Source: Planctomycetota bacterium
Lineage (GTDB): Bacteria > Planctomycetota > Phycisphaerae > Phycisphaerales > Phycisphaeraceae
Assembly: GCA_024279865.1 (NCBI GenBank)
Contig: JAJRRC010000022.1
Coordinates: 124,001-188,000 of the forward strand
DNA length: 64,000 nucleotides
Direction of reading: 5' to 3'
Positions 151-64,000 of this stretch are shown here, piece by piece; position 1 is the stretch's first letter, and each line of letters begins with the position of its first letter. A program made the translations under genes and the position numbers. The notes below the pieces were generated by a model. That model searched no databases. It was not told the origin of the DNA and saw only the letters and a list, made by a program, of their open reading frames with translations.

Positions 151-1830
151 TCAATACACATCACGCTGATACCGACCGGTTTTTTGTAGTTCATCAATGT
201 AATTCTTCGTGGCCTGCTCATCGAGACCGCCCTCTTGAGAAACAACCTGATGCAACGCTTGATCCACGTCCCGCCCCATCTGGCGTGCATCACCACAAAC
301 ATACAAATGAGCACCTTGTTCGAGCCAGTGCCATAACGGCGTAGCCTGTTCGAGCATGCGGTGTTGAACGTAAATCTTTTCTTTTTGATCGCGTGAAAAA
401 GCAACGTCCAGCCGAGTCAATACATTTTTTTCTTGGTATTGAAGCAATTCACGTTCATACAAAAAATCCGTCTCACGTCGCTGATCCCCAAAGAAAAGCC
501 AATTCCCCCCCCCGGAAGTTTTGGATACGTCTCCCCCGGCCCCCCCGGTTCCCCTGACTCCCCTGACTCCCCTGACTCCGGGGGGGCCGGGGGGCGTTTC
601 CAAGGTCGATCTTTCCTGTAAAAAGGCACGAAAAGGTGCAATGCCTGTCCCGGCTCCGATCATGATGACCCCTGCGATTGGATCTCTTGGCAAGGCAAAG
701 TTGTGAGCCTTCTGTACAAAAACTTTCACCGCTTCTCCGGGTTCAATCCGACGGGTCAAATAGTTCGAGGCCACCCCTTGCCGCTGGCGACCGCCGGATT
801 CATAACACACCACGCCCACCGTGAGATGAACCTCTTGCGGATACACCTTGGGCGAAGACGCAATGGAATACAAACGTGGCTGAAGCATTGGCAAAATTGC
901 AAGCAAAGTCTCCACCTCCGGACGGACAGCAGGATAGCGTTCGAGTAAATCCAAAAGCTCCATCTCAGCCAAAGCCTCGTCATCTTCTGCCAAGGCTTGG
1001 AGTTCTGCCTTGACCGAAGCATCGGTCGCATGTTGAGCAAGCAAAGTGACCACATCCTCCTCCAATGCAGTGACCATGCAATGACAACGCAAAACTTCTT
1101 CCAGCAACATTGGTTCATTGCCAAAAGACACTTGCATCTGAGCGTCAAGGTCTAGTTGCTCCAAAATTTGAGAGATCAGCAGGGGATCATTTTGCGGACA
1201 AACGCCCAAGCTGTCGCCTGCTTCGTAGACTAGCCCGCTGTCCGCCAAGTCCAAAGCGACGAATCGGGTGTCCTTGGCAGAACCTTTGCCATTGAGTTTT
1301 TTAACGGTTAATAAGGGAGCGTCAAATAGCTGTGGTCCGTTGTCCTTGAGAACCTTTGCCGATTCAATTTCGCTTTCATCCAAAGCGGGTGCATTTTCTT
1401 TCACCATTTTTTTAAGTGCTTTGGAAGTTTCGGTTCCGCCGGGAGCGCATCGGGTCAAACTTTTTTCGGTCCCCTCAGCAATCGCCGCCGCATAGGTTTC
1501 GCATTGATACCCACATGCCCCACAATCCAACTGCGCCATGGCAGCCATCATCTGCAAGGAGACCGTTCGATCCTTGGCCAGTTCCAATCGCTCGGCCAAT
1601 TCCAATGAACCATCATGCCAAGGATGCGATTCTTCCTCAGGGGGGGCCTCTAAAACAGCAGTCCCTCCCAAATGGTCGGAGGTCATTCCGGGGGCTATTC
1701 CGGGGGCTATTCCGGGGGCACTTCCGGGGGCACTTCCGGGGGGGGGGATGAGGCCGGCAAAGAAGCCGTTGAGCCAAGCTCTTTGCTGGGGGTCAAATGG
1801 AGCGGATTCGGGAATGATTGGAGATTGCAT
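151..1830 (-). CDS. CysJ-like NADPH-dependent flavoprotein reductase with 4Fe-4S domain
   Basis: Last gene of the nitrate operon; 559 aa from the ATG at 1830, with a GTG one codon earlier as alternative. Residues 103-128 hold a four-cysteine cluster motif (CGACGYQC, then C128). The C-terminal part is a CysJ/ferredoxin-NADP reductase module with the FAD motif RLYSIASSP, the NAD(P) motif GAGTGIAPFRAF, the NWLFFGDQ strand and YVCGDARQM. The CysJ flavodoxin domain is absent; the Fe-S domain takes its place, so electrons probably run NADPH > FAD > 4Fe-4S > partner. The partner is inferred to be the siroheme reductase just upstream. Two low-complexity insertions, about residues 30-49 and 412-442, are encoded by G/C-rich tandem repeats; the second splits the NADP domain between FLQER and NWLFFGD. 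Family naming as sulfite reductase alpha would also fit. Confidence 0.85.
   Translation of the reverse strand: MQSPIIPESAPFDPQQRAWLNGFFAGLIPPPGSAPGSAPGIAPGIAPGMTSDHLGGTAVLEAPPEEESHPWHDGSLELAERLELAKDRTVSLQMMAAMAQLDCGACGYQCETYAAAIAEGTEKSLTRCAPGGTETSKALKKMVKENAPALDESEIESAKVLKDNGPQLFDAPLLTVKKLNGKGSAKDTRFVALDLADSGLVYEAGDSLGVCPQNDPLLISQILEQLDLDAQMQVSFGNEPMLLEEVLRCHCMVTALEEDVVTLLAQHATDASVKAELQALAEDDEALAEMELLDLLERYPAVRPEVETLLAILPMLQPRLYSIASSPKVYPQEVHLTVGVVCYESGGRQRQGVASNYLTRRIEPGEAVKVFVQKAHNFALPRDPIAGVIMIGAGTGIAPFRAFLQERSTLETPPGPPGVRGVRGVRGTGGAGGDVSKTSGGGNWLFFGDQRRETDFLYERELLQYQEKNVLTRLDVAFSRDQKEKIYVQHRMLEQATPLWHWLEQGAHLYVCGDARQMGRDVDQALHQVVSQEGGLDEQATKNYIDELQKTGRYQRDVY
509..600. repeat. G/C-rich tandem repeat inside flavoprotein gene
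   Basis: A C-rich tract contains three copies of a 9-bp CCCCTGACT unit flanked by CCCCCGGC and GGGGGGGCCGGGG runs. On the coding (minus) strand it is read in frame as a Gly/Val/Arg/Pro linker at about residues 412-442 of the flavoprotein. Related proteins normally pass almost directly from the FLQER helix to NWLFFGDQ. Confidence 0.8.
1683..1750. repeat. 12-bp tandem repeat (TTCCGGGGGC core), in frame
   Basis: Five consecutive 12-bp units, three of ATTCCGGGGGCT type and two of CTTCCGGGGGCA type, end in a G10 run. On the coding strand of the flavoprotein they encode PGSA/PGIA units at about residues 30-49, between the N-terminal QQR..L.GF..GL helix and the rest of the protein. Confidence 0.9.
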
Positions 1831-12275: not shown

Positions 12276-12310
12276 GACTGACAACTGATAACTGATAACT
12301 AATAGCTTTA
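12276..12310. repeat. Heptamer repeat upstream of serA
   Basis: Four to five consecutive 7-bp units (TGACAAC, TGATAAC, TGATAAC, TAATAGC) end just before the serA Shine-Dalgarno. The same heptamer recurs at 19771-19896, 36094-36131 and 49929-50062. Here it is a single arm. Confidence 0.75.
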
Positions 12311-19752: not shown

Positions 19753-19770
19753 AGCCGAGAATTATAACAA

Positions 19771-19896
19771 GCGATCAGCCATCAGCTATCAGCTATCAGT
19801 AAGACGGAGAAAAAAACAGGCTCTACGCCCTGCTCTAACCCATCTTGAGCCATCTTCTTCTTGCTGATCGCTAATCGCTGATAGCTGATCGCTTAC
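19771..19896. repeat. Foldback pair of heptamer arrays between queF and gatC
   Basis: The left arm (19771-19800) repeats ATCAGCT-type heptamers and ends in CAGTAAGACGG. The right arm (19850-19896) begins CTTCTTCTTGCTGATCG and repeats the complementary TGATAGC/TGATCGC heptamers. The arms are inverted about a 50-base spacer, so nearly the whole divergent gap could form one long hairpin. Promoters of both genes must lie in or beside it. Confidence 0.75.
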
Positions 19897-24496: not shown

Positions 24497-24511
24497 CCCC
24501 CCCCCCCCCCC
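24497..24511. repeat. C15 homopolymer immediately after pntAB
   Basis: Fifteen consecutive C residues begin directly after the TAG stop and run into CGGAAGC, matching the CCCCCGGAAG core of the dispersed repeat. It is an unusually long homopolymer between two operon genes and a likely hypermutable site. Confidence 0.85.
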
Positions 24512-24627
24512 GGAAGCTGGGCATTCGATAAAGCCCGGCCTGTTGGGGAATTGCCCCTTTGTTTTTTCTGCCAAAAACCAGCCCCCCTTAACTTGCTCAT
24601 ATTAAAAGATTAAAGATTGGTTTCGTT

Positions 24628-26160
24628 ATGCTTAATACCACACTGGCTCTCAGTCCTGATGACATTATGAATCTGCTGTACCTCACCGCGGCGGTTTTGT
24701 TTATCGTCGGCCTCAAACTCCTGTCTAGCATCAAAACCGCCCGACGAGGCAACCTCATCTCCGCATTGGGGATGCTCCTCGCCTGTGCGGTCACCCTTGC
24801 CAAACTCACCGGGCCAACCTTGGGAAGCCTTGCGTGGATCGGTGCAGCCGTCGCAGTAGGAACGATCTGTGGCCTCTTGCTCGCATTAAAAACCCCCATG
24901 ACTGGCATGCCTCAGATGGTTGCCCTGCTTAACGGCTTTGGCGGCATTGCCTCCTTGCTCGTAGCGACAGCAGACTACCACGGCCGCTTTGCACGCACGA
25001 TCCAAACATTTGGGAGCGATGCCCTCGCTGAAACCAAACGCCAGTTCTACACCCAAACCTGGGTCTGGGACAGTAACCTCGCCATCGGACTAACCGTCCT
25101 TGTCGGAGGCATCACCTTTACGGGCAGCCTTGTCGCCTTCGGCAAACTCCAAGGACTCTCCATCACCCCCACCCGACCGATCCAATTCTTCGGCCAAAAA
25201 TTCCTCATCGGACTCGGACTCCTCGCTTGCCTTGCTCTAGCCATTGCACCGTTGGTGGTCTTTGAATCACCACTCACAGCCGACTTGTCCGACCTCGTCA
25301 ACCATGCCCACCAATTCAACTGGTTCATCATTGCCATCTGCGTCATTTCTCTACTACTGGGAATCCTTTTGGTCATCGGCATCGGCGGTGCGGACATGCC
25401 CGTGGTGGTCTCACTTCTTAATAGTTACTCAGGCATTGCCGCAGCCATGGCAGGATTTGCCCTGCGAAACCAAGCACTCATCATCACCGGCGCACTCGTC
25501 GGTGCATCGGGTATTATCCTCACCAACATCATGTGCAAAGCCATGAACCGGTCCCTCGCCAATGTCCTGTTCGGCGGCGTAGGCGGGGCCCCCAAAGCAG
25601 GTAGCTCCAGCAGCGGTAAAATCACCGGAACCGCCCGTGAAATGACCGCTGAAGACGTGGCCATCCAACTTGATGCTGCCAGCCAAGTCATCGTCGTCCC
25701 AGGCTATGGCATGGCCGTCGCTCAAGCCCAGCACGGCGTGGCTGAACTGGGCAAAGCCCTTGAAGACCGTGGTGTTACCGTGAAATACGCGATCCATCCC
25801 GTGGCCGGCCGCATGCCCGGGCACATGAACGTCTTGCTCGCTGAAGCGAATGTTCCTTATGAACAGCTCTGTGACCTTGAACAGATTAACCCTGAATTTG
25901 AGCAAACTGACGTGGTCCTGGTCATTGGCGCCAACGATGTGACCAACCCCGCAGCCCGTCATGCAACGGAGAGTCCGATCTATGGCATGCCGATTCTGAA
26001 CGTCGATCAAGCTCGCTCGGTGGTGGTCATTAAGCGAAGCCTCAACCCAGGCTTTGCAGGCATTCAAAATGAACTCTATTTCCAACCCAACTGTGGCATG
26101 CTCTTCGGCGATGGCAAAGCCATGGTCAATGCCTTGATCACAGCGTTGGCTGAAATTTAA
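24628..26160 (+). CDS. pntB: NAD(P) transhydrogenase subunit beta
   Basis: 510 aa with an N-terminal membrane domain of about eight to nine segments and a C-terminal NADP(H)-binding domain III. Motifs are KTPMTGMPQMVALLNGFGG, GADMPVVVSLLNSYSG, and the NADP site VPGYGMAVAQAQHGV with GANDVTNPAA. It couples proton entry to NADPH formation. The 131-base gap after pntAB, with its poly-C tract, is unusual for this operon, and no Shine-Dalgarno is obvious. Confidence 0.96.
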   Translation: MLNTTLALSPDDIMNLLYLTAAVLFIVGLKLLSSIKTARRGNLISALGMLLACAVTLAKLTGPTLGSLAWIGAAVAVGTICGLLLALKTPMTGMPQMVALLNGFGGIASLLVATADYHGRFARTIQTFGSDALAETKRQFYTQTWVWDSNLAIGLTVLVGGITFTGSLVAFGKLQGLSITPTRPIQFFGQKFLIGLGLLACLALAIAPLVVFESPLTADLSDLVNHAHQFNWFIIAICVISLLLGILLVIGIGGADMPVVVSLLNSYSGIAAAMAGFALRNQALIITGALVGASGIILTNIMCKAMNRSLANVLFGGVGGAPKAGSSSSGKITGTAREMTAEDVAIQLDAASQVIVVPGYGMAVAQAQHGVAELGKALEDRGVTVKYAIHPVAGRMPGHMNVLLAEANVPYEQLCDLEQINPEFEQTDVVLVIGANDVTNPAARHATESPIYGMPILNVDQARSVVVIKRSLNPGFAGIQNELYFQPNCGMLFGDGKAMVNALITALAEI

Positions 26161-26250
26161 GACGCGCCCCCGCGAACGCTGTTAGCGTGTGGCTATTTTT
26201 CAAACGACCCACCTCGTCAGAGGCGGTAAAAAATGATGCCATTTTCTCCA
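26161..26250 (+). mobile_element. Truncated copy of the 115-bp foldback element
   Basis: From GACGCGCCCCCGCG it carries the central hairpin (AACGC TGTTA GCGTG), the GGCTATTTTTCAAACGACCC segment and the right terminal repeat (CGGTAAAAAATGATGCCATTTT). The left terminal repeat is missing; the element starts right after the pntB stop codon. It aligns with full copies at 35945 and 63567. Confidence 0.75.
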
Positions 26251-27385: not shown

Positions 27386-28453
27386 ATGTCTGTGGATCAG
27401 GATTTAGCCATTTTCGATGAGATTCCCGCTCGGTGCGAGCAATTGCGTCAAGTCATTGGGCAAGCGGTGGTGGGTCAGTCGCAGACGGTGGAACTCCTTT
27501 TGGCTGCCTTGATCTGTCATGGCCACGTGTTGTTGGTGGGTGTTCCGGGTTTGGCTAAGACACGGCTGGTGCGAACGTTGGGGGCTGCATTGGATTTAAC
27601 CACGCAGCGGATTCAGTTTACGCCTGACCTGATGCCTTCGGACATTGTGGGAACGGAATTGATTCAGCCAAATTCTCAAACAGGCCAGCGGGAGTTGGTT
27701 TTTCAACCGGGTCCTGTGTTTGCACATTTGGTTTTGGCAGACGAGGTAAACCGGGCACCGCCCAAGACGCAGGCAGCGTTGCTTGAAGCGATGGCCGAGC
27801 GTCAGGTCACTGCTGGGGGGCAGACTCGCGGGTTACCTGAGCCGTTTGTGGTGATTGCCACTCAGAACCCTATTGAGTTGGAGGGGACCTATCCGTTGCC
27901 TGAAGCGCAGTTGGACCGATTTATGTTCAGTTGCCACATGGATTATCCAGATCGAGCCCAAGAGATGGCCATTGCGCGTCTGGGCGAAGATGATTTTGAG
28001 CAGGCCATTAAGCCGGTGGTAGATCATCCAACACTTGGGGCATGGAACCGCGTCGTCGGCAAGATGCCTGTGAGCGAGAGGCTCACGGGACTGGTCGTGG
28101 ATTTGGTTCGCGCAACCCGACCCAGTCAACAAGAAACATTGCCAGGAAAACAACCGGGGGAGCCGGGGGTACGACCGGGGGCACTTCCGGGGGCGGGGGC
28201 GGGGGTGGGGGCACTTCCGGGGGTGGATCGTTATCTTTCGTGGGGCGTGGGACCTCGTGGGACTCAGCATGTCTTGCGGGGGGCGTGTGCGTTGGCTGCG
28301 ATGGCAGGCGAGCCGACACCGACATTGGACCATGTTCGTCTCGTGGCACCGGCGGTTTTGCGTCATCGGTTGGTTTTAAATTTTGATGCGATGAGTCAGC
28401 AGATCACGCCTGATCAGATTCTCGAAGAAGTTTTGGAGACATGCCTCAAATGA
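27386..28453 (+). CDS. MoxR family AAA+ ATPase with repeat-derived insertion
   Basis: 355 aa from ATG 27386 (alternative ATG at 27374). Walker A is GVPGLAKTR, Walker B is LVLADEVNRAPPKTQ, sensor region IATQNPIELEGTYPLPEAQLD, and the lid has WGVGPRG. MoxR ATPases act as chaperones, usually beside VWA-domain genes; none is here. About residues 256-276 (PGEPGVRPGALPGAGAGVGALPG) form a Pro/Gly insertion encoded by the G/C-rich repeat, placed between the lid helix VRATRP and the conserved DRYLSWGVGPRG. The next gene overlaps in an ATGA. Confidence 0.9.
   Translation: MSVDQDLAIFDEIPARCEQLRQVIGQAVVGQSQTVELLLAALICHGHVLLVGVPGLAKTRLVRTLGAALDLTTQRIQFTPDLMPSDIVGTELIQPNSQTGQRELVFQPGPVFAHLVLADEVNRAPPKTQAALLEAMAERQVTAGGQTRGLPEPFVVIATQNPIELEGTYPLPEAQLDRFMFSCHMDYPDRAQEMAIARLGEDDFEQAIKPVVDHPTLGAWNRVVGKMPVSERLTGLVVDLVRATRPSQQETLPGKQPGEPGVRPGALPGAGAGVGALPGVDRYLSWGVGPRGTQHVLRGACALAAMAGEPTPTLDHVRLVAPAVLRHRLVLNFDAMSQQITPDQILEEVLETCLK
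28150..28215. repeat. G/C-rich tandem repeat inside moxR
   Basis: CCGGGGGAG, CCGGGGGTACGA, CCGGGGGCACTT and CCGGGGGCG units follow each other in frame, with two copies of GGGGGCACTTCC. They encode PGEPG, PGALPGA and similar linkers in a normally conserved AAA+ lid region. Confidence 0.85.
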
Positions 28454-35944: not shown

Positions 35945-36059
35945 AGTGTATTTTTCATCATTTTTTGCCGCCCCCCCGGACGCGCACGCTGTTAGCGTGC
36001 GGCTGCTTTTCAAATGACCCACCTAGCCAGAAACGGTAAAAAATGATGCAAAATACTCT
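35945..36059 (+). mobile_element. 115-bp foldback element, full copy
   Basis: Terminal inverted repeats of 26 bp match at 23 positions (left AGTGTATTTTTCATCATT..., right complement AGAGTATTTTGCATCATT...). Inside, from left to right, are GCCGCCCCCCCGGACGCGC, a perfect hairpin (GCACGC TGTTA GCGTGC), GGCTGCTTTTCAAATGACCCACC and the right arm. No coding capacity. The gap 35872-36136 otherwise holds only a heptamer array. Confidence 0.88.
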
Positions 36060-39032: not shown

Positions 39033-39067
39033 TCACTTAAAAATAGCCGCAAGCAAACTGCTTGCGC
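39033..39067 (-). mobile_element. Remnant of the foldback element (hairpin part)
   Basis: On the minus strand GACGCGCAAGCAGTTTGCTTGCGGCTATTTTTAA aligns with the core of the copies at 26161 and 35945, but stem bases differ in a compensatory way (GCAAGC/GCTTGC instead of GCACGC/GCGTGC). The outer arms are missing. A long G/C-rich tandem array lies on its left side, where other copies carry CCCCCCCGG. Confidence 0.6.
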
Positions 39068-39083
39068 GTCTGGCATTCCAAGG

Positions 39084-39170
39084 AAACTTCCGGGGAACTT
39101 CCGGGGAACTTCCGGGGAACTTCCGGGGAGATTCCGGGGATTCCGGGGATTCCGGGGGTTCCGGGGGGGG
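39084..39170. repeat. 12-bp and 9-bp G/C-rich tandem array after the rhomboid gene
   Basis: Four GGAACTTCCGGG-type 12-bp units are followed by three GATTCCGGG-type 9-bp units and a G9 run. The array ends 2 bases before the rhomboid stop codon on the minus strand. It lies next to the foldback remnant at 39033. Confidence 0.92.
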
Positions 39171-39172
39171 GA

Positions 39173-41656: not shown

Positions 41657-43438
41657 ATGCAATCAAAAAAACTTTTTGCCATCACCAGCATCCTAGTCTT
41701 TGGCATTGCCGAAGTGACTGTTCAAGGCCAATACGGACTGGACAACAACCTCGAACAATCCTCGAGCCAAATCAACCCCAGCTCCCCTTTGACAGATTAT
41801 GGTGCGAGAAACAACCTCATCACCGGTAACGTCAGTGGAAACAAACAGTTCCGTGGCAACGTCGACTATGGCTCTGCGGGCGATTTCCGAGGTTCCGCCG
41901 GCAGTGACCACCTCTTTCGATACCGAGCCAGCGCAGCCCCCGCAGGCGCGATACGGAACATGCTCAGCCCCCAAAGCATCCGACGCAGTAGTCGAGCAGC
42001 TATTTTGGGCAATGTCCCCACACTTCGCTCGAATTCTCGGAACCTGATCCCATCGGTCGATACCTCCGTCGGCACTTATCGGACAGGTCAAGTCCAACCC
42101 CAAGCACCAGGTGCCAGCCAAGCTGGCCTCAGTAGCAACAGGTCCTTGAATGTACGAACCCGCCAGCAAAGCCGTGCCCAGCCAGGCTCACCCATGACCG
42201 TGAATCTGCGTCCGCTTGCCATCGGCGGCCGCTCTGCTGCCTCGGTCCCCGCGCAGCGAGCTTTCACGCCTTCGCAAACCAACCCCGATAGCTTGCTGGC
42301 TTATCCTTTATCCACCGCCCCCAAACCCACCGCTCAAACACCTGCCCCGGCGCGAAGCCTCCTCTCCTCACAGCCGGCTCATGAGCCTCATGCTTCTCAA
42401 GAACAGCGTGTGTTGAAACTTCAATCTCAACAAACTTCAGATCAGGGATCATTAAACGCCCTGCCCGGACAAGATGCCTTCCAAATGCTCCGCCAAGCCA
42501 AAGCCAACCGCCAACGCATCGCCCAAGGTCTCGAACCACTCACCCACGGCCCCAACCCCACCAACCAACTCATCAAATCGACCCACAAAAAAACCGCAAC
42601 CCCCGGTTCCCCCGGTTCCCCCGGCTCCCCCGGTTCCCCCGGCTCCCCCGGCTCCCCCCGAACCCCTGCAAATACCTTGGGGTCACCCCAATCCCTTGGC
42701 AATGCCCAAACAGTCGCCCAGGCGGACGCGTTTAGCCAAGTGCTTCAAGCCGTGTCTCAAGGTATCACCACGCCACAAGAATTAGCACGCCAACGACAGC
42801 AAGAACAACAGCAAATCACCCACGCACGATTGACTGCCCGAGGTGTCCAAACACCACAACCCGCCATCGCCAGCCCACCCCCCACCGGCGGCTTGTTCGC
42901 AACAGCCAAACCCGCTGCTAAAACCGCCCCTGTGGTCCCAGGAATCCCCGAACACTCTTCACAAACAGCCACCGACTTACAACGCCAGTGGTACAACACA
43001 CGCATGCTCCAACAAGGGAACAATAACTTGCGTCATGGCCAGTATTTTGATGCAGCACGCAAATTCCGAAATGTCCTGCTTTCTGAGCCAAACACGTTCG
43101 AAGCCAGCAGAGGCCTGCTCCATGCTCAGATTGGTGCGGGCATGATCCGCGTGGCCTCGTTGAACCTGCGATCACTTTTTGAAAAATTCCCTCAAAGCAT
43201 CTCAAACAAAGTCGATATCGCAACCTTACCAAACGCAAAAAGACGCAACTGGGTCCGTCAGCAGGCACAAAGTTTAATGGATCAGTTTGGGAATCATGAT
43301 GCGGCTTTGCTCTTGGCCTATCTGGGCTATCAGACATCTGACGCACAGTTGTTACAATATGGCATGAACATAGCGCAGCAGAACCTTCAGGGCGACCCCC
43401 TCCTTCCGCTGCTTCGCCGTGCTTGGCAAGGGAAATAA
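41657..43438 (+). CDS. Exported Pro-rich protein with collagen-like insertion
   Basis: 593 aa with a signal peptide (LFAITSILVFGIAEVTVQG). Residues 20-300 are Gln/Ser/Pro/Arg-rich and low in structure. At residues 314-334 lies a run of PGS triplets encoded by 9-bp CCCCGG(T/C)TC repeats. The last 150 residues are helical and TPR-like (QGNNNLRHGQYFDAARKF, EASRGLLHAQIGAGMIRVA). No family was recognised. A periplasmic or surface scaffold is a guess. Confidence 0.7.
   Translation: MQSKKLFAITSILVFGIAEVTVQGQYGLDNNLEQSSSQINPSSPLTDYGARNNLITGNVSGNKQFRGNVDYGSAGDFRGSAGSDHLFRYRASAAPAGAIRNMLSPQSIRRSSRAAILGNVPTLRSNSRNLIPSVDTSVGTYRTGQVQPQAPGASQAGLSSNRSLNVRTRQQSRAQPGSPMTVNLRPLAIGGRSAASVPAQRAFTPSQTNPDSLLAYPLSTAPKPTAQTPAPARSLLSSQPAHEPHASQEQRVLKLQSQQTSDQGSLNALPGQDAFQMLRQAKANRQRIAQGLEPLTHGPNPTNQLIKSTHKKTATPGSPGSPGSPGSPGSPGSPRTPANTLGSPQSLGNAQTVAQADAFSQVLQAVSQGITTPQELARQRQQEQQQITHARLTARGVQTPQPAIASPPPTGGLFATAKPAAKTAPVVPGIPEHSSQTATDLQRQWYNTRMLQQGNNNLRHGQYFDAARKFRNVLLSEPNTFEASRGLLHAQIGAGMIRVASLNLRSLFEKFPQSISNKVDIATLPNAKRRNWVRQQAQSLMDQFGNHDAALLLAYLGYQTSDAQLLQYGMNIAQQNLQGDPLLPLLRRAWQGK
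42597..42660. repeat. 9-bp tandem repeat CCCCGG(T/C)TC, in frame
   Basis: Six to seven units in a row encode PGS repeated in the exported Pro-rich protein. It belongs to the same G/C-rich family as the 12-bp arrays. Confidence 0.92.
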
Positions 43439-49928: not shown

Positions 49929-50062
49929 AGTGATCAGTTATCAGTTGTCAGTTATCAGCAAGATAAGAAACGATGAAAGCCGTGCCTCGGGGTGAGCGGT
50001 GGTTTTTGGGATTATTATTTGTTGCGTATATTCTCTTACTGATAGCTGACAACTGACAACTT
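49929..50062. repeat. Foldback pair of heptamer arrays between yicC and the kinase
   Basis: The left arm (49929-49966) has ATCAGTT/GTCAGTT heptamers ending in CAGCAAGATAAGAAA. The right arm (50030-50062) starts ATTCTCTTACTGATAGC and continues with TGACAAC heptamers. The arms are inverted about roughly 65 bases, the same plan as at 19771-19896. Confidence 0.75.
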
Positions 50063-53548: not shown

Positions 53549-53663
53549 GATACAGATCGTCTTTTTTACGTCAAGTCAGACACACAAGCAAGTTTGCTTG
53601 CTGCTATTTGCGAACATTAAAAACAGGCTGAAAAAACGGCAAAAAGTCATGCAAAATGTGTGA
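53549..53663 (+). mobile_element. Diverged full-length copy of the foldback element
   Basis: The right arm ACGGCAAAAAGTCATGCAAAAT aligns with ACGGTAAAAAATGATGCAAAAT of the copy at 35945. The core hairpin is AAGCAAG-TT-TGCTTGCT, followed by GCTATTTGCGAACATT. The left arm GATCGTCTTTTTTACG matches TCATCATTTTTTGCCG. The length, about 115 bp, equals that of the other copies. The polyC tract is missing here. Boundaries are approximate. Confidence 0.6.
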
Positions 53664-54840: not shown

Positions 54841-56232
54841 ATGAAAAAACAAAATTTATTGACTGCCGCCATCTTCGCAGGATTGGTCCTCGGACTCATT
54901 GCGGGGGAACTTCTGTTTCGCCATTACAGCGGAGACGTGCCAACAAGCTGGCTTGATGGCTTAAATTTCGTCGGCGACACCTTTTTCATGCGGCTACTTA
55001 AAATGGTCCTCGTCCCACTGGTCGCCTCCAGTGTCATCGCAGGGGTGGCCTCCATTGGTGATCCATCCCAGCTCGGCCGCGTCGGCGGCTGGACCGTGGT
55101 CTATTATTTCTCCACCATGGCCGCAGCAGTCATCCTAGGCGTGGTCTTGGTGAGCCAAATCGGCCCAGGCGAAGGCTTTCCCAGCGAATTACGCATCGAG
55201 AGCGTGGTAGCCTTTGATGCTCAACAGGGAACCATCCAGACCCGCGTCTCCGAGGCCTCTGGCACAGGCTTGTGGGGGGCGTTTCAAAACATCTGCAAAC
55301 AACTGATCCCCTCCAATCCTGTCGGCGCGGCAGCTCAAGGCCAATTACTCCCAACGATTTCATTTTCCTTGCTACTGGGCATTGTGCTAACCACACTTGG
55401 AAGTAAGGGCAGACCGGTGCTGGACTTTTTCCAAAGCCTGTTCGAGGCCATGATGAAACTCGTCGGCTGGATTCTCTGGCTTGCCCCGCTGGGTGTGGGA
55501 TGTCTGGTTGCCTGGACGGTAGCACGCATTGGGTCGGTTGCATTGGTAGGCCCATTGGGCAAGTACATGCTCACGGTTTTTATAGGCTTACTCTTGCATG
55601 GGGCGATTGTTTTGCCCTTGGTACTTTGGCTGGTGGGCAGGACCAATCCTTACCGTTTTATGTGGCAAATGAAAGATGCGTTGATGACTGCTTTTGGCAC
55701 GGATTCATCCAGCGCGACGTTGCCTGTGACAATTGAAACGGCTCAGAAGTCAGGTGGCTGTTCTAAGCGTTCCAGTGAATTTGTCTTGCCGTTGGGCGCG
55801 ACGATTAACATGGATGGGACTGCGTTATACGAAGCGGTTGCGGTGGTTTTCCTGTTTCAATGTTTTGGCATTGACCTTGGCCCCGTCCAGCTTGGCATTG
55901 TGGTGCTTACTGCCACGCTCGCGGCCGTGGGCGCGGCAGGGATTCCCAGCGCGGGTTTGGTCACCATGGTCATCGTTGTCGAAGCGGTGAACGGCTCTTT
56001 GGGCGATCAAACACCCCACTTGCCGTTGGCTGCGGTGGGGATCATTTTGGGCGTGGATCGTATTTTGGACATGTGTCGAACCACGGTCAATGTCTGGGGC
56101 GATTCGGTGGGCGCGAAGATCATCACCCGCTTGGCTCCGGACACCCCCGGAAGTGTCCCCGCCCCCGGCAGCGCCCCCGGCAGTGCCCCCGGTAGTGCCC
56201 CCGAAAACTCCTCTGGCAATGCCTCGGAATAA
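54841..56232 (+). CDS. Dicarboxylate/amino acid:cation symporter (DAACS family)
   Basis: 463 aa from ATG 54841 with about eight membrane segments and two hairpin loops. The transport core is clear: the serine-rich SSSATLPVTIE, GATINMDGTALYEA and GIPSAGLVTMVIV. Substrates are glutamate, aspartate or C4-dicarboxylates. The last 30 residues (PGSVPAPGSAPGSAPGSAPEN) are a repeat-encoded tail beyond the usual end of the family. Confidence 0.93.
   Translation: MKKQNLLTAAIFAGLVLGLIAGELLFRHYSGDVPTSWLDGLNFVGDTFFMRLLKMVLVPLVASSVIAGVASIGDPSQLGRVGGWTVVYYFSTMAAAVILGVVLVSQIGPGEGFPSELRIESVVAFDAQQGTIQTRVSEASGTGLWGAFQNICKQLIPSNPVGAAAQGQLLPTISFSLLLGIVLTTLGSKGRPVLDFFQSLFEAMMKLVGWILWLAPLGVGCLVAWTVARIGSVALVGPLGKYMLTVFIGLLLHGAIVLPLVLWLVGRTNPYRFMWQMKDALMTAFGTDSSSATLPVTIETAQKSGGCSKRSSEFVLPLGATINMDGTALYEAVAVVFLFQCFGIDLGPVQLGIVVLTATLAAVGAAGIPSAGLVTMVIVVEAVNGSLGDQTPHLPLAAVGIILGVDRILDMCRTTVNVWGDSVGAKIITRLAPDTPGSVPAPGSAPGSAPGSAPENSSGNASE
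56141..56212. repeat. 12-bp repeat encoding the symporter tail
   Basis: Units of CCCCCGGCAGTG type (12 bp) follow each other in frame and encode PGSA repeats just before the stop codon. Confidence 0.9.
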
Positions 56233-63566: not shown

Positions 63567-63684
63567 TAGAGCATTTTTTATCATTTTCTGCCGCCCCCCC
63601 GGACGCGCACCCTGTTAGCGTCCGGCTGCTTTTCAAATGCCCCACCTAGGTCAGAGGCGGTAAGAAATGATGCAAAATGCTCTA
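63567..63684 (+). mobile_element. 118-bp foldback element, full copy
   Basis: The outer 11 bp are a perfect inverted repeat (TAGAGCATTTT ... AAAATGCTCTA), and 22 of 27 bases match over the longer arms. TA at both ends could be a TA target duplication. Inside are GCCGCCCCCCCGGACGCGC, the hairpin region around CCCTGTTAGCG, and GGCTGCTTTTCAAATGCCCCACC, as in the copy at 35945. Confidence 0.9.
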
Positions 63685-64000
63685 TCCCACTTCACGTCAA
63701 TCATTTCCCGTTTTAATTGCGTTTGTCGTTTAAAAATAGCTGGGTGTGAAAACCGTTGCTCCGGGGGGCCGGGGAGCCGGGGGGCCGGGGGGCCGGGGGT
63801 GCGTCTGCAAAAAGACATAAGACGCGACACTTGGATGAATCACGCTCTAATACCTCACATTCTGTGTTTTCATGGAGCTTGCTTGTGGAGAGCCGCATGA
63901 ACCACCAGTTTGTCCAGCGTGTTTGCGGGGTTCCCCGTGGGTGACTGAGCATAAGTCATTCGCACCCGGACATAGAACGCTTGTCTAGGCTGCCAATGGT
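63685..64000. other. Non-coding end of window with a G/C-rich array
   Basis: No gene could be supported. At 63758-63798 is a G-rich array (GCCGGGGAGCCGGGGG units, 9 bp), and at 63926-63937 a CGGGG/CCCCG hairpin. Confidence 0.5.

Follow-up and report, generated by a model that had tools for sequence, protein, structure and literature searches.

Tandem G-run arrays and a hairpin-bearing miniature element in a planctomycete genome

The genomes of Xanthomonas and Nostoc carry G-rich heptamer repeats of the form GGGNATC, which are able to form quadruplexes (Rehm et al. 2015, PMC4692102). The arrays of the planctomycete genome described here resemble these repeats in that G-runs are arranged in tandem at sites throughout the genome, the number of units varies, and quadruplex formation is possible in principle. 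However, the planctomycete units are mostly ~8-14 bases long (the bulk of them 9-13), with a CTTCCGGGG core, and are not heptamers. In addition, the Xanthomonas and Nostoc repeats are mainly non-coding, whereas the planctomycete arrays are polar and many are located in frame within genes. Polarity is also a property of the human FMR1 CGG tracts, which are interrupted repeats with 3′ polarity. The planctomycete arrays and the FMR1 tracts are alike in that the longest uninterrupted run lies at one end of the array, but they differ in unit length, sequence, and organism.

A miniature element found in the same genome is comparable to the MITEs of the IS630/Tc1-mariner group, which it resembles in being ~115 bp long and non-coding and in having inverted ends. 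Many copies also show a terminal TA, as read with a search pattern that favours TA, and the element end resembles that of a resident IS630 transposase gene (one end compared). Unlike these MITEs, the planctomycete element encloses a hairpin of REP-like form that is bordered by a G-run. GTAG- and CGTC-tagged REPs are hairpins that are sometimes nested in longer palindromes, and the CGTC kind is without its own transposase (Di Nocera et al. 2013, PMC3733652). The planctomycete hairpins are likewise short, intergenic, and present in high copy, either solo or nested, and no dedicated transposase was found nearby. They nevertheless fall outside both REP definitions. CGTC REPs have an unpaired CGTC, a stem of 8-9 bp starting with AT, a loop of 4-5 bases, and a CCA tail, whereas the planctomycete hairpin has CGTC at its 3′ end (when read with the G-run), and neither the AT start nor the CCA tail; a RAYT gene flanked by the repeat, as in GTAG REPs, does not accompany it. 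A search of the accessible literature yielded no description of such arrays, or of such an element, in planctomycetes.

The miniature element and its hairpin

The draft genome (G000) comprises 3.42 Mb in 122 contigs, and comparison of pyrE placed its closest named relatives in the Phycisphaeraceae and other Planctomycetota. A 64,000-nucleotide stretch (the window) was analysed together with a genome sample of stretches totalling 1.23 Mb (36% of the genome), in which densities may be somewhat high because some contigs were picked for element or array matches. A first, loose hairpin pattern was dropped (85 matches, versus 38 in the reversed control). BLAST identified 42 element copies in the genome, and a profile search gave 103 matches in the sample. 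The elements are 110-120 bp long, and their ends are inverted (TAGAGCATTTTGCAT...) and often carry TA on either side. Complete copies have the layout TA-GAGCATTTTGCAT...-hairpin-CCGGGG...-ATGCAAAATGCTC-TA. The hairpin carried by this family ends in GCGCGTCCGGGG; it has a 7 bp stem (CGCACGC or CGCAAGC), the 3′ end GCGCGTC, and the tail CCGGGG. Among 68 strict hairpins in the sample, both terminal repeats were present in 14, one in 16, and neither in 38, compared with pairing TAGAGCATTTTGCAT ends at 2 of 2000 random sites. TA was present at the left end in 11, and at the right end in 10, of 16 copies with both repeats, although the search pattern itself favours TA. The end of an IS630 transposase gene (C17:23222) matched the terminal repeat at 18 of 22 bases, the other IS630 end being off the contig, whereas chance produced at best 12-15 matching bases in element-free sequence of the same length. 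Judged by the one IS630 end compared, the element thus looks like a putative IS630-type miniature transposon with an inner hairpin.

Mobilisation by a RAYT protein was considered and rejected. The genome contains two Y1_Tnp matches, no hairpin was near either of them within the stretches retrieved, and the match at L107 resembles an ordinary IS200-type protein. A second foldback subfamily, with the same hairpin and other inner flanks (...AATACAAGTGGAGATCATTTACGCAA...), was observed at C38:13120-13202, C110:10044-10127, and C62:24175-24257. In several hairpins, an insert of the CCCCGGGG type, or a G-run, immediately precedes CGCGTC in the 3′ arm (C22:26649, C22:55344, C62:4323, C73:2389, C82:46697, C38:106024-106114, and window 26161-26187); no such insert was seen in a 5′ arm.

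Copies 1 and 2 of the foldback element in the window both lie on the minus strand. Copy 1 (35945..36059) has inverted repeats at its termini, encloses an inner hairpin (35979..36003; GCCGCACGCTAACAGCGTGCGCGTC read on the minus strand), and shares 90% identity with copy 2 (63568..63683), which has TA at each end (CCTAGAGC ... GCTCTATCC) and whose inner hairpin (63602..63626) differs from that of copy 1 by two substitutions. Each copy folds into a single long hairpin, with z = -6.5 for copy 1 as RNA and z = -4.9 for copy 2 as DNA. A C/G tract, reading CCCCCCCGG on the plus strand, lies at the 3′ edge of the minus-strand inner hairpin in both copies (35971..35979 and 63594..63602), and its last G is the first base of the GACGCGC hairpin start, confirming the direct contact described in the initial annotation. 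A diverged third copy, with GCGGGGGCGCGTC in the 3′ arm of its hairpin, is located at 26147..26247 (minus strand; nhmmer match C38:150147-150247), and a weak fourth copy, with the hairpin AGCAGCAAGCAAACTTGCTTGTGTGTC, at 53564..53658 (minus strand; nhmmer match C38:177564-177658, E = 1.8e-9). The hairpin GCCGCAAGCAAACTGCTTGCGCGTC at 39046..39070 is on the plus strand, opposite to the hairpins of copies 1 and 2, and no terminal repeats were seen around it. This site had been described as a remnant at 39033, but it is better named a solo hairpin, the larger part of the strict hairpins in the sample (38 of 68) likewise lacking both repeats. Rfam searches of the window (at the gathering threshold) and of three element loci (at E-value 1) returned no fitting RNA family. 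In the pyrE neighbourhoods of 80 relatives, neither the element nor a comparable array was found at the place of copy 1 (35945).

Arrays at the hairpin edge

The solo hairpin is accompanied by an intergenic array on the plus strand (39090..39171), which contains eight CCGGGG-type units with a period of mostly 11 and then 9 bases. The array lies on the 3′ side of the hairpin, in hairpin orientation, and is 19 bases away. The initial annotation was thus right that, at this hairpin (39046-39070), the side bearing the tract in copies 1 and 2 is occupied by an expanded array, which is of the TTCCGGGG kind; the array starts after the 19-base gap and not directly against the hairpin, and eight units were counted instead of "nine-ish", the last with nine G. 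A period-8 array at 63763..63799 (plus strand) is ~80 bp outside copy 2; neither its side nor its strand fits an origin from the element tail. Arrays without a nearby hairpin include a G/C-run array at 533..593 (minus strand), a period-12 array (ATTCCGGGGGCA) at 1688..1747 (plus strand) with a last G-run of ten bases, a mixed-spacer array at 28154..28223 (plus strand), and two minus-strand arrays within reading frames, with periods of 9 (42600..42666) and 12 (56144..56203). Placement beside a hairpin, as predicted, holds for one of eight window arrays (39090), a proportion similar to that in the genome sample. The window also holds a separate class of repeats, the seven-base tandem arrays at 12277-12304, 19770-19799, and 49929-49958 (ACTGATA, AGCTATC, and AGTTATC). 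At 24498-24513, a single long C run followed by GGAAGCTGGG adjoins a sequence resembling a tRNA 3′ end, where no tRNA was called.

Counting as arrays all tracts of three or more G-runs, the sample contained 207 arrays and 129 hairpins. Their association was assessed by relocating the hairpins 200 times to non-coding sequence inside the same sample. Within 25 bp of a hairpin, on its 3′ side and on the same strand, 12 arrays were found, compared with a null mean of 0.9 and a null maximum of 4; within 100 bp, 20 were found, compared with 2.7 expected. One orientation out of four was shared by 12 of the 14 arrays lying within 25 bp. The initial annotation had named the lack of an array excess near elements as the observation that would speak against it. 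Because the excess found is clear and has the right polarity, that objection falls away, and the link between hairpin and array is real and local.

The distance from the hairpin to the right terminal repeat is 21-24 bases in most of the 16 complete copies, and is expanded in three of them, to 50 (C102:13831), 53 (C121:12071), and 37 bases (C46:39659). The sequence added in these three copies holds further copies of GCGCGTCCGG or GCATCCGGGG, and some of the array units repeat the hairpin tail GCGCGTCCGGGG. The array excess, the varying tract length, and these tail-copy units together show, by comparison of sequences, that tract expansion has occurred within some element copies. The suggestion that arrays arise by slippage inside the element is supported to this extent, slippage itself being the presumed mechanism. 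Its extension to arrays in general, which were proposed to originate within the element and to spread from it, was not supported: a hairpin of any placement lies within 100 bp of 27 of the 207 arrays (~87% are without one), arrays on the predicted side amount to ~10%, and hairpin-poor genomes are equally rich in arrays (see below). The element is one starting point among many for arrays, and not their source.

Whether the hairpin does more than supply a starting sequence depends on the comparison made. Non-coding CCGGGG loci reach three or more runs at 6 of 25 hairpin tails (24%) and at 43 of 247 other loci (17%; p = 0.42). When all hairpin tails are included, with the four masked as reading frame, the fraction is 10 of 29 (p = 0.04), and relative to all other seeds the same 10 of 29 gives p = 0.003. 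The odds of an array per seed are thus ~1.5-3.5 times higher at a hairpin tail, with p ranging from 0.42 to 0.003. Since hairpin-tail seeds expand more often in some of these counts, the element is perhaps not a merely passive seed, and a modest enhancement of expansion by the hairpin is possible. In a stronger version of this idea, the hairpin would stall replication and the G-runs on its 3′ side would slip much more often, creating a local array factory without spread, which is compatible with expansion in place. The strict polarity of the association, the higher odds per seed, and the confinement of the CCCCGGGG inserts to the 3′ arm favour such an effect. However, a hairpin is lacking at the majority of arrays, and no significant difference emerged when the comparison was restricted strictly to non-coding sequence, so that this stronger version is possible but rather unlikely.

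Arrays in hairpin-poor relatives and in genes

The pair CCCCCGG..CCCCCGG occurs 765 times in G000, compared with 32 for the reversed pattern. Two relatives were found to have similar numbers of array pairs with almost no hairpins (732 pairs and 3 hairpin matches in G015, 609 and 1 in G035), the hairpins in relatives being counted by a sequence pattern that other hairpins could escape. Six genomes combine rich arrays with background hairpin counts (G015, G035, G001, G021, G029, and G033), whereas G005 and G034 are array-poor members of the family. In the 37 family members compared, the number of arrays did not vary significantly with the number of hairpins (Spearman 0.20, p = 0.24). The CTTCCGGGGG unit is common to the arrays of G000 and those of sister genomes without the hairpin. 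Derivation of the common unit CACTTCCGGGGG from the hairpin tail GCGCGTCCGGGG was ruled out, because the hairpin-free G015 shares the unit. Longer tandem repeats were noted at C1:72676-74026, C121:49352-49483, and C59:43134-43273, comprising a 66-bp unit repeated 20 times, as well as units of 45 bp with a CTTCCGGGGG-type core.

The spacers between G-runs give a similar picture. CTT-CCGGGG is the dominant spacer form in both G000 (0.34) and G015 (0.49), and CTT dominates in hairpin-tail arrays and other arrays alike. Of the internal spacers, the element-tail forms CGT, CAT, and TGT account for 13% in hairpin-tail arrays and for 1% elsewhere. Adjacent spacers of the same length share 83% identity when they belong to one array, compared with 50% for spacers from different arrays, and this locus-specific likeness points to expansion in place. 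Arrays within genes show a further constraint: a period that is a multiple of three characterises 32 of 33 in-frame arrays (both flanks coding, in one frame), compared with 11 of 28 non-coding arrays. The G-runs are on the coding strand in 18 in-gene arrays and on the template strand in 15.

These data bear on the idea that arrays were born by slippage in the foldback element and spread genome-wide, and that the element was later lost. The clear array excess at the hairpin 3′ edge, the expanded tracts in complete elements, and the somewhat more frequent expansion of hairpin-tail seeds would fit such an origin. Nevertheless, it is very improbable and already largely refuted: hairpin-free sister genomes equal G000 in arrays, element-tail spacers are rare away from hairpin tails, the spacers are specific to each locus, and many arrays are in frame within genes, where insertion of an element would be disruptive.

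The arrays are also directional. Among 72 arrays with a single longest G-run, the 3′-terminal run was the longest in 46 and the 5′-terminal run in 11, where 21 would be expected for each. In the window, G-run lengths from 5′ to 3′ are 5,5,5,5,10 in the array at 1688-1747, and 4,4,4,4,4,4,5,9 in that at 39090-39171. In G015, the last run was longest in 8 of 11 arrays and the first in 3, which is not significant alone. This polarity suggests directional array growth, although selection or decay of 5′ units could yield the same pattern.

A shared word, CTTCCGGGGGGG, occurs 226 times in G000 and 158 times in G015, with no occurrence as a reversed control in G000, and three more genera have ~63 occurrences each. 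It is frequent in G000, G006, G015, G026, G028, G030, and G033, with the reversed control absent or nearly absent. A search for a conserved box upstream of CTTCCGGGGGGG gave nothing clear past the AAC adjoining the core. Many arrays contain four or more G-runs. The abundance of this word in several family genera and the precedent of quadruplex-forming repeats in Xanthomonas and Nostoc (PMC4692102) are compatible with conserved functional sites under selection, for example G-quadruplex or protein-binding sites, which the element would exploit or mimic. This is a doubtful explanation, however, as arrays in coding sequence have G on either strand, unit lengths are many, and array numbers are patchy across related genera.

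G-runs are error-prone in short reads, and the genome is a draft in 122 contigs, so that poly-G errors or collapsed repeats might have been introduced by sequencing or assembly. An artefact of this kind is nonetheless extremely improbable, given that in-gene periods keep the reading frame and that the same unit is found in independent genomes.

Probable expansion in place and its significance

The most probable reading, held with good confidence, is that CCGGGG-type seeds expand in place throughout the family, and that the element carries one such seed, perhaps 1.5-3 times as likely as others to expand, and does not seed arrays elsewhere. Short CCGGGG seeds, mostly (A)CTTCCGGGG, would grow in place, presumably by replication slippage, to tandem arrays with units of ~8-14 bases. 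Units would be added, or kept young, at the 3′ end, and within genes almost solely periods divisible by three persist. A separate family of miniature elements, probably mobilised in the IS630 manner, carries the hairpin ending in GCGCGTCCGGGG, and the CCGGGG at the hairpin edge would be one seed of many, which would account for the expanded tracts in some element copies. A bolder and unlikely extension is that a dedicated enzyme, or a defect in polymerase or repair, drives an active process in which CTTCCGGGG seeds gain G-run units directionally at their 3′ ends, genome-wide, in genes and between them, in many genera, and also at the edge of the mobile hairpin.

Two look-alike things are thereby set apart, namely a presumably mobile element that bears a hairpin and a tandem-repeat process at work across the whole genome. 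The element is a further case of a REP-like hairpin nested within a miniature transposon. The polar, in-frame arrays in genes constitute a natural record of G-run expansion in bacteria, and a family with both array-rich and array-poor members is well suited to a search for its cause.
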